NCBI GenBank assembly: GCA_022764275.1
Contig: JALERH010000172.1
Coordinates: 1 to 64,000, forward strand
Direction: 5' to 3'
DNA length: 64,000 nucleotides
DNA from: Blautia sp.
GTDB taxonomy: Bacteria > Bacillota > Clostridia > Lachnospirales > Lachnospiraceae
Both the position numbers and the translations under genes were made by a program. Of this stretch, positions 6,130 through 55,484 are shown one piece after another (within the stretch, counting starts at the first letter, position 1; each line of letters begins with the position of its first letter). The notes beneath the pieces were generated by a model, which searched no databases, was not told where the DNA came from, and saw only the letters and a program-made list of their open reading frames with translations.

Positions 6130-6490
6130 AATCCCCGGTTCCATGTCCCTTTAGGACGAGAACCGGGTCCCGTGATACCACCTAATTTCGCAGAAGACTC
6201 GCATCTTCTGCCTCCGTAAGTGACGCATTCAGATTCAAGTCGAACGCACGTGAGACTTGGCGCGCGATTCTGGTCAGCTTAAGCTGACATCTTTCTTCTC
6301 CGACTGAGATAAATGATCACCCCAGCGCGATAACGGGCGCCGCTCCGCTGCAGCCTACTGATCGTCAAAACGTTCGGTGCAAAGCTCCGGGATGTATTCA
6401 CACAGGTTCCACAGGTGCCTCTCACCAGCCGGCAGCTCTCTGTCTGCTTTCCCAATGCTACTCTTTCCCTTCAAAGCCTTTGTCATTTGA
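6130..6490 (-). ncRNA. T-box leader of tyrS, tyrosine specifier
   Basis: On the minus strand: T-box sequence AGGTGGTATCACGGG, a CCCGGTTC...GAACCGGGGATTTTTT terminator, and a specifier-loop context GAATACATCC with UAC (Tyr) at 6394-6396. Confidence 0.93.
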
Positions 6491-35089: not shown

Positions 35090-35271
35090 AAAATCCTCTG
35101 ACGGGGCCTATATGAAATTTTAGAGTTCCCAGGCCCCGTTTGCATCTCAAATCCGTGAAAATACACAGTTTTATAGGGCAAATTTTCTCTATACTGAAAA
35201 AATTGCTTCTGAGACCCCGTTTTTAAGTATTTCCGGGATCTGGGGAAGCAATTTTTTTGTATGGATACTTT
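35090..35271. repeat. Structured intergenic repeat, copy A
   Basis: Hairpin 1 ACGGGGCCT...AGGCCCCGT (35101-35139); CAAATTTTCTCTATAC; hairpin 2 ATTGCTTCtgagaccccg...GAAGCAAT; GTATGGATAC. Shared layout with 45994-46170 and 55123-55304. Confidence 0.8.
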
Positions 35272-35289
35272 TGATATTGGAATTAAAAA

Positions 35290-36123
35290 CTATTCCTCAT
35301 ACATTTTTCTCAGAAGCGCAATCTCTCTCGCCCAGCCTTCGTCATCGTTCGGCGTTTCCAGGATAAATGGCCTGCCTTCCAGCGCAGGATGACGCACAAC
35401 ACGCACCAGTGCATCCAGCCCGATCTGTCCCTCTCCTATCTTTGCATGGCGGTCTTTGTGGCTTCCCAGTCCGTTCTGGCTGTCATTCAGATGAATGGCC
35501 TTCAGATTGGAAAGTCCGATGCAGCGGTCGAATTCTTCCAGAACACCGTCCAGATCATTCACAATATCGTATCCCCCATCCCACACATGACAGGTATCCA
35601 GACAAACTCCTATTTTGTCTTTCTTCTCCACAAGATCCATGATGGCTTGGATCTCCTCAAATTTTCCACCTACCTCAGAACCCTTTCCGGCCATGGTCTC
35701 CAGAAGCACTGTAGTCGTCTGCTCATCCGTCAGTACATCATTCAGAATTTCTGCAATTTTTTCAATGCCGGTTTCCATTCCCTGTCCTACATGGCTGCCG
35801 GGATGAAAATTATAATAATTTCCCGGCGTCGCTTCCATACGCCGCAGGTCATCTGCCATGGTCTCTCTGGCAAACACACGAAGGTTTTCCTTTGCCGCAC
35901 ATGCATTCAGTGTATAAGGCGCGTGCGCCACGATTTTTCCGAAATGCTGTTCTCCGGCAATCTCCAGATATTTTTTAACATCTTCTGGATCAATTTCCTT
36001 TGCATTGCCGCCCCTGGGATTTCTGGTAAAAAATGCAAAAGTATTTCCGCCGTTTTTCACCATCTGACGTCCCATTGCCGCATAACCTTTGGAAGATGTT
36101 GTATGATTTCCGATATATAACAT
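35290..36123 (-). CDS. nfo: Endonuclease IV (deoxyribonuclease IV)
   Basis: AP endonuclease 2 motifs: [49 protein letters not shown]. Confidence 0.95.
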
Positions 36124-45993: not shown

Positions 45994-46170
45994 AGTTTGG
46001 GCATATGCGGAGGGCAATTCTTCCTCAGGCCCAATATCATGGGAATTCTTATGAAAATATAAGAATTTTGCCTGCAATTTTCTCTATGTCGGTATAAAAT
46101 ACTCCCCAGACCCAGAATTTTGCGTTTTTCTGGGTCTGGGGACAAATTTTGTTTGCTGTAGATACAAAAG
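45994..46170. repeat. Structured intergenic repeat, copy B (most diverged)
   Basis: TTGGGC...GCCCAA; CAATTTTCTCTATG; 15-bp perfect stem TCCCCAGACCCAGAA/TTCTGGGTCTGGGGA (46104-46143); ...TAGATAC. Confidence 0.65.
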
Positions 46171-46275
46171 ACATCTAAAATGCCCTGTTTTACCGTAAAA
46201 TCCCAGGAAATTTTCTCCAGCGAGGTATCTTTTTTCATATATGCCCAAAAGTGTTTCGAACAGCAGCAACTGTTC

Positions 46276-54950: not shown

Positions 54951-54980
54951 ATCATACTAAAAAACGGTATGAAAAGTCAA
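54951..54980 (-). promoter_or_regulatory. Putative SigA promoter of plsX-rnc-smc
   Basis: TTGACT-N18-TATGAT on the minus strand. Confidence 0.5.
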
Positions 54981-55031
54981 TAGAATACGCTATTTTTCCC
55001 ACCCAATGGGTGTCTGGTTATTACTATTCAT

Positions 55032-55447
55032 GGCTTAGCCGAATAAGCTTTTTCAATAGTCATCTATTGAATGGGTGTTCCACAGGAGTGTGGCACCCAT
55101 TCTTTCATAGAATACCTATCAGAAAATCCTCAGCGGGGTCTATGCAGAATTTTTTCGCCCCCAGATCCCATTTTCCACAAAAATGAGGGAAAAATCACAA
55201 CTTTTCATGCCAAATTTTCTCTATACAGAAAAATCATCTTCTGAGACCCCGCTTTTTAAGATCTCCGGGGTCTGAGAACACAATTTTTCCGTATAGATAC
55301 TTTTTGCATACTAGTTTGCCGTCTTTTACTTGAATTTCCTGGTAAATGGGCTCTGTCTATGAATTTTTTCTGCATAGACCCAGGGTTGCTTATTTTCCGG
55401 CAACCCTTTCAATGGCTCAACATTGAAAATGCTCATTCGGCTAAGCC
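55032..55447. repeat. Nested inverted-repeat element between the NUDIX gene and plsX
   Basis: Outer arms 55032-55057/55422-55447 (24/26 complementary), inner arms 55136-55149/55368-55381 (14/14), side hairpins at 55069-55102 and 55383-55405. Confidence 0.8.
55123..55304. repeat. Structured intergenic repeat, copy C
   Basis: AAAATCCTCAGCGGGGTCTAT...CCCCCAGATCCC...CCAAATTTTCTCTATACAGAAAAATCATCTTCTGAGACCCCG...CGGGGTCTGAGAA...ATTTTTCCGTATAGATACTTTT; aligns with copy A. Confidence 0.8.
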
Positions 55448-55484
55448 GTCCGCCGGATTTGACACGACATCATGCAATTATTTT

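Follow-up and report, generated by a model that had tools for sequence, protein, structure and literature searches.

BIMEs are mosaics of short palindromic units that lie between genes in alternating orientation. REPINs are doublets of REP sequences that form hairpins, with conserved ends and a middle part which is kept in length and pairing and shows compensatory changes (PMC3116915). In the 64-kb stretch of DNA analyzed here (the window), we identified an intergenic palindromic repeat which is probably one copy of a non-autonomous, REPIN-like mobile DNA repeat. No description of these repeat sequences, or of intergenic repeats of such kind in this bacterial family, was found in the literature.

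The repeat is located between a NUDIX gene and plsX. The distance from the NUDIX stop codon (55485) to the plsX start codon (54882) is 602 bp, longer than the approximately 530 bp given in an earlier note on this DNA, and no convincing open reading frame was found on either strand, in agreement with its description of the gap as noncoding. The outer arms that had been proposed (55032-55057 and 55422-55447) indeed match at 24 of 26 positions, and this inverted repeat reaches 45 bp at 82% identity (55032-55076 and 55403-55447). The inner pair (55136-55149 and 55368-55381) is perfect and sits within a 58-bp inverted repeat with 71% identity. One side hairpin was found exactly where it had been placed, and the other is one base longer than proposed (Table 1). 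The nested inverted repeats are genuine and far above chance. The minimum free energy of segment 55010-55470 was -187.3 kcal/mol on the minus strand compared to a mean of -110.8 for dinucleotide shuffles (z -13.1), and -172.5 kcal/mol on the plus strand (z -11.5); none of 100 shuffles folded as well.

The earlier note had missed a 246-bp palindrome inside these arms, which is the most widely repeated part of the element; the outer arms form a separate module that is present on some copies only. This palindromic core consists of two direct units of 33-34 bp followed by both units in inverted orientation, and can form one long hairpin. In aligned copies the core ends are (CGG)CGGGGTCTATGCAGAA.

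Table 1. Coordinates of the repeat copies, their parts and the neighbouring promoter in the window.
Feature	Position	Strand	Basis or remark
plsX promoter, TTGACT-18-TATGAT	54951..54980	-	Intact despite insertion; similar promoter in many relatives
Outer terminal inverted repeat, A-type module, ATTACTATTCATGGCTTAGCCGAATAAGC	55020..55048	+	14 genome matches (at most 3 mismatches) vs 1 for control pattern
Side hairpin of outer module	55069..55102		Sequence and fold; kept in A-type copies
246-bp palindromic core, full copy	55134..55383	-	Model R1, 212 bits; at least 34 near-complete copies in genome
Unit U4, inverted, GGGTCTATGCAGAATTTTTTCGCCCCCAGATCCC	55136..55169	+	Sequence
Unit U3, inverted	55217..55250	+	Sequence; family pattern match to centre module
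Central loop, 16 nt	55251..55266		Sequence and fold
Unit U2, GTATCTATACGGAAAAATTGTGTTCTCAGACCCC	55267..55300	-	Sequence; family pattern matches centre module 55220-55297
Unit U1, GGGTCTATGCAGAAAAAATTCATAGACAGAGCCC	55348..55381	-	Sequence; also present in other genera
Second side hairpin	55383..55406		Sequence and fold
Opposite outer terminal repeat, without last 11 bp (GTTACTATTCA)	55431..55448	-	Runs into sequence like ISL3 transposase remnant (L091)
Second core copy, partial	35102..35305	-	131.5 bits
Third core copy, divergent, GGGCAT ends	46000..46245	-	74.2 bits; sequence

A DNA search of the host genome (G000, a fragmented assembly that is 92% complete) returned 92 matching pieces, showing that the stretch belongs to a dispersed repeat. 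The 2.63-Mb genome carries at least 34 near-complete core copies, which lie on different contigs and have different flanks. The own-genome alignment comprised 34 near-complete copies, and further partial or divergent copies exist besides these. The 14-bp core end alone gave 82 matches (at most two mismatches; 44 forward and 38 reverse) compared to 15 for a control. With the core model, three copies were detected within the window. The divergent copy adjoins a AACAGCAGCAACTGTTCTTA hairpin, and the same flank is found beside other divergent copies and upstream of an ISL3 transposase fragment. Nearly all complete copies of this genome have a core of 245-248 bp, and 22 indel events were counted against 1721 substitutions across the 34 copies, which is generally a low ratio. 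The closest pair of copies is 93.6% identical; since the copies are not near-identical, recent movement is not directly seen.

The window copy is composite, with the core nested in an outer module that has its own terminal inverted repeats. This A-type arrangement, in which the core lies within ends GTTACTATTCACGGCTTAGCCGAATAAGC, is found in about ten copies besides that in the window, several of them being partial. Older B-type copies have different outer ends (GGTTCTTTC..GGG). The best preserved A-type copy (L086 on G000:C124) is 481 bp long, has matching terminal repeats and carries CAGAAATG on both sides, an 8-bp target duplication for which the chance of an identical 8-mer pair is about 5.5e-5. 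No duplication was present on L043 and a 6-bp T-rich match was present on L103; among the A-type copies having both ends, one of two has a clean target duplication. In A-type copies L008, L010, L011, and L012, a direct repeat of approximately 22 bp (TGATTTTTTGACAGGTATTCT) is present in one to three units between the core and the right outer arm. The contigs of L010, L011, and L012 start or stop within the same A-type left arm, and copy number may therefore be underestimated. Searches among contigs of named genomes gave no match to the core pattern. The outer-repeat pattern matched a single uncultured Lachnospiraceae MAG, where a 24-26-bp match to the outer end stands alone at L160:5538-5561, without a core.

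More than 20 same-genus genomes have NUDIX and plsX side by side, and the site of the window copy is empty in them. The gap is mostly 42-161 bp without the element; a few relatives have a longer gap, up to about 1 kb. Many same-genus genomes have a TTGACT..TATGAT promoter ahead of plsX. The short junction in relatives, together with the intact promoter in the window, places the insertion point of the window copy after the NUDIX stop codon and ahead of the plsX promoter, both of which remained intact. The core model gave a match in one of 63 same-genus genomes (G010), where a single remnant is present. The dispersed copies, their shared ends, the empty sites and the 8-bp target duplication carried by the best preserved sister copy support one of the two suggestions in the earlier note, namely that the outer arms could be the terminal inverted repeats of a non-autonomous element.

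Within the same family, the core model also matched sequences in seven other genera; in four of these seven, clear cases were identified with a pattern covering the central 78 bp, which gave almost no control hits. The other-genus copies are very diverged and keep the order U1> U2> <U3 <U4, with units of 33-34 bp that have self-complementary ends (for example GTATCTATAGAAAAAAATACAACTCAAAGATAC) and a total length of 245-249 bp among clearly delimited copies. Across genera the units follow the plan GTATCT/GGGTCT-AT-nnn-AAAAAA-N10-AGATAC/AGACCC (approximately 33 bp), some copies having GTATCT/AGATAC ends and others GGGTCT/AGACCC. In nine cross-genus copies, 33 double compensatory changes were counted compared to a mean of 13.1 and a maximum of 21 in 500 shuffles, an excess that is somewhat flattered because palindromy (at least 19 of 31 pairs) was part of the basis on which the copies were chosen and the shuffle ignores relatedness. 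Judged from these sequences, pairing appears to be maintained across genera by compensatory changes, and the plan rather than the sequence is conserved. At one end of copy L178 (G118:C21), a unit and its spacer are duplicated as a direct tandem with a period of about 73 bp.

The very strong folding on both strands, slightly stronger on the strand that carries the neighbouring genes, would fit a large structured non-coding RNA, as the earlier note had considered, or a cis-regulatory RNA upstream of plsX. Such an RNA is nevertheless highly improbable, as relatives lack the element at this junction, the insertion point is upstream of the plsX promoter, and copies occupy many unrelated gene contexts and orientations. 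Rfam covariance models gave no match to the element, and alifold and pair counts were negative as well. Double changes among the 34 copies within the genome were no more frequent than in shuffles (16 vs 15.3), and the covariation score was slightly raised (0.133 vs 0.121), a difference of a size that relatedness alone can yield. G-T and A-C mismatches were alike (138 vs 114), which gives no indication that one RNA strand is under selection. Based on the lack of an Rfam match, of clear within-genome covariation and of RNA-strand bias, the structured-RNA reading is not supported, and a conserved single-locus RNA was rejected. Elsewhere in the window, a T-box leader is present at 6149-6483 on the minus strand (103.3 bits, exceeding the Rfam gathering score). 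Alternatively, the repeat could be a domesticated chromosomal element of which the copies are held in place by selection for the hairpin or cruciform, as a protein-binding site, supercoiling site or two-way terminator, comparable to BIME functions. The tree of the 34 copies is star-like with long terminal branches (5.28 of 6.70), which agrees with this explanation, as do the very few indels and the compensatory changes across genera. Compared with a neutral simulation, folding is stronger than expected in most of the more diverged copies (down to z -4.5), whereas the decay of young copies, among them the window copy, is about neutral. The presence of the element is also patchy, with none in most relatives, and its gene context is not fixed, and we consider domestication unlikely.

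An origin as an ordinary MITE of an ISL3-family insertion sequence would account for the 8-bp duplication on one copy, a length consistent with this family, and for the B-type outer ends GGTTCTTT, which we take to be similar to ISL3 ends. In addition, the sole ISL3 transposase found in the genome adjoins a divergent core copy. This transposase is a fragment, the ISL3 elements examined in relatives have other ends, and the four-unit core recurs in other genera with different outer flanks, making this origin doubtful; because of the mismatch in ends, ISL3 was rejected as parent. Neither an autonomous parent nor a mobilising gene was found among the regions searched (ISL3 relatives and approximately 1.44 Mb of carrier genome G374). 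In this part of G374, about half of the genome, all copies were compact, and no long element sharing their ends was present. A search for Y1/RAYT transposases, the known enzymes of REPINs, gave no PF01797 match in carriers G000 (92% complete), G374, G135, G308, and G118, and RAYT/Y1 was rejected as mobiliser. A phage or plasmid origin gave no match, and Tn3-like and attC-like readings were also considered and set aside.

For the REPIN-like mobile repeat, we propose that the replicating part is the 246-bp palindrome, folded into one long hairpin that may be the recognised form. Its mobilisation would probably depend on a trans-acting protein that recognises the paired units and copies or moves the hairpin, as has been proposed for REPINs. 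During the most recent burst, the core may have travelled as part of a larger carrier module that has its own terminal repeats and is associated with an 8-bp target duplication. Tentatively, the element may represent hairpin mobile DNA of a RAYT-independent class in this bacterial family, with a 246-bp four-unit palindrome of which length and pairing, but not the sequence, are kept across genera, which would imply an unrecognised enzyme acting on folded or cruciform DNA. If this plan is right, it describes a REPIN-like replicator in genomes without the enzyme known to move REPINs. The identity of the mobiliser would then be directly testable via gene co-occurrence in carriers compared to non-carriers, and the plan would offer an anchor for annotation of intergenic repeats in this bacterial family.

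Like MITEs of insertion sequences (the ISL3 type was considered), the element is short and noncoding, has terminal inverted repeats and multiple dispersed copies, carries an 8-bp duplication on one copy and has an empty orthologous site, the latter from the window copy only. It differs from these MITEs in that no parent was found in the searched parts, where an ISL3-derived element would be accompanied by an ISL3 transposase with matching ends, and in that the core keeps its plan and not its sequence across genera. With BIMEs it shares an intergenic position and short palindromic units in alternating orientation, but it has a fixed four-unit order and total length and its sequence is unrelated to REP. 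Compared to REPINs, which have two REPs, the element has four units of approximately 33 bp and a length of 246 bp, no Y1/RAYT transposase was found in the five carrier genomes searched, and no GTAG/CGTC tag was noticed in the element. As in REPINs, the copies are interspersed, intergenic and palindromic, with conserved end motifs; the variable middle retains its length and hairpin capacity and shows compensatory changes on both sides (PMC3116915).
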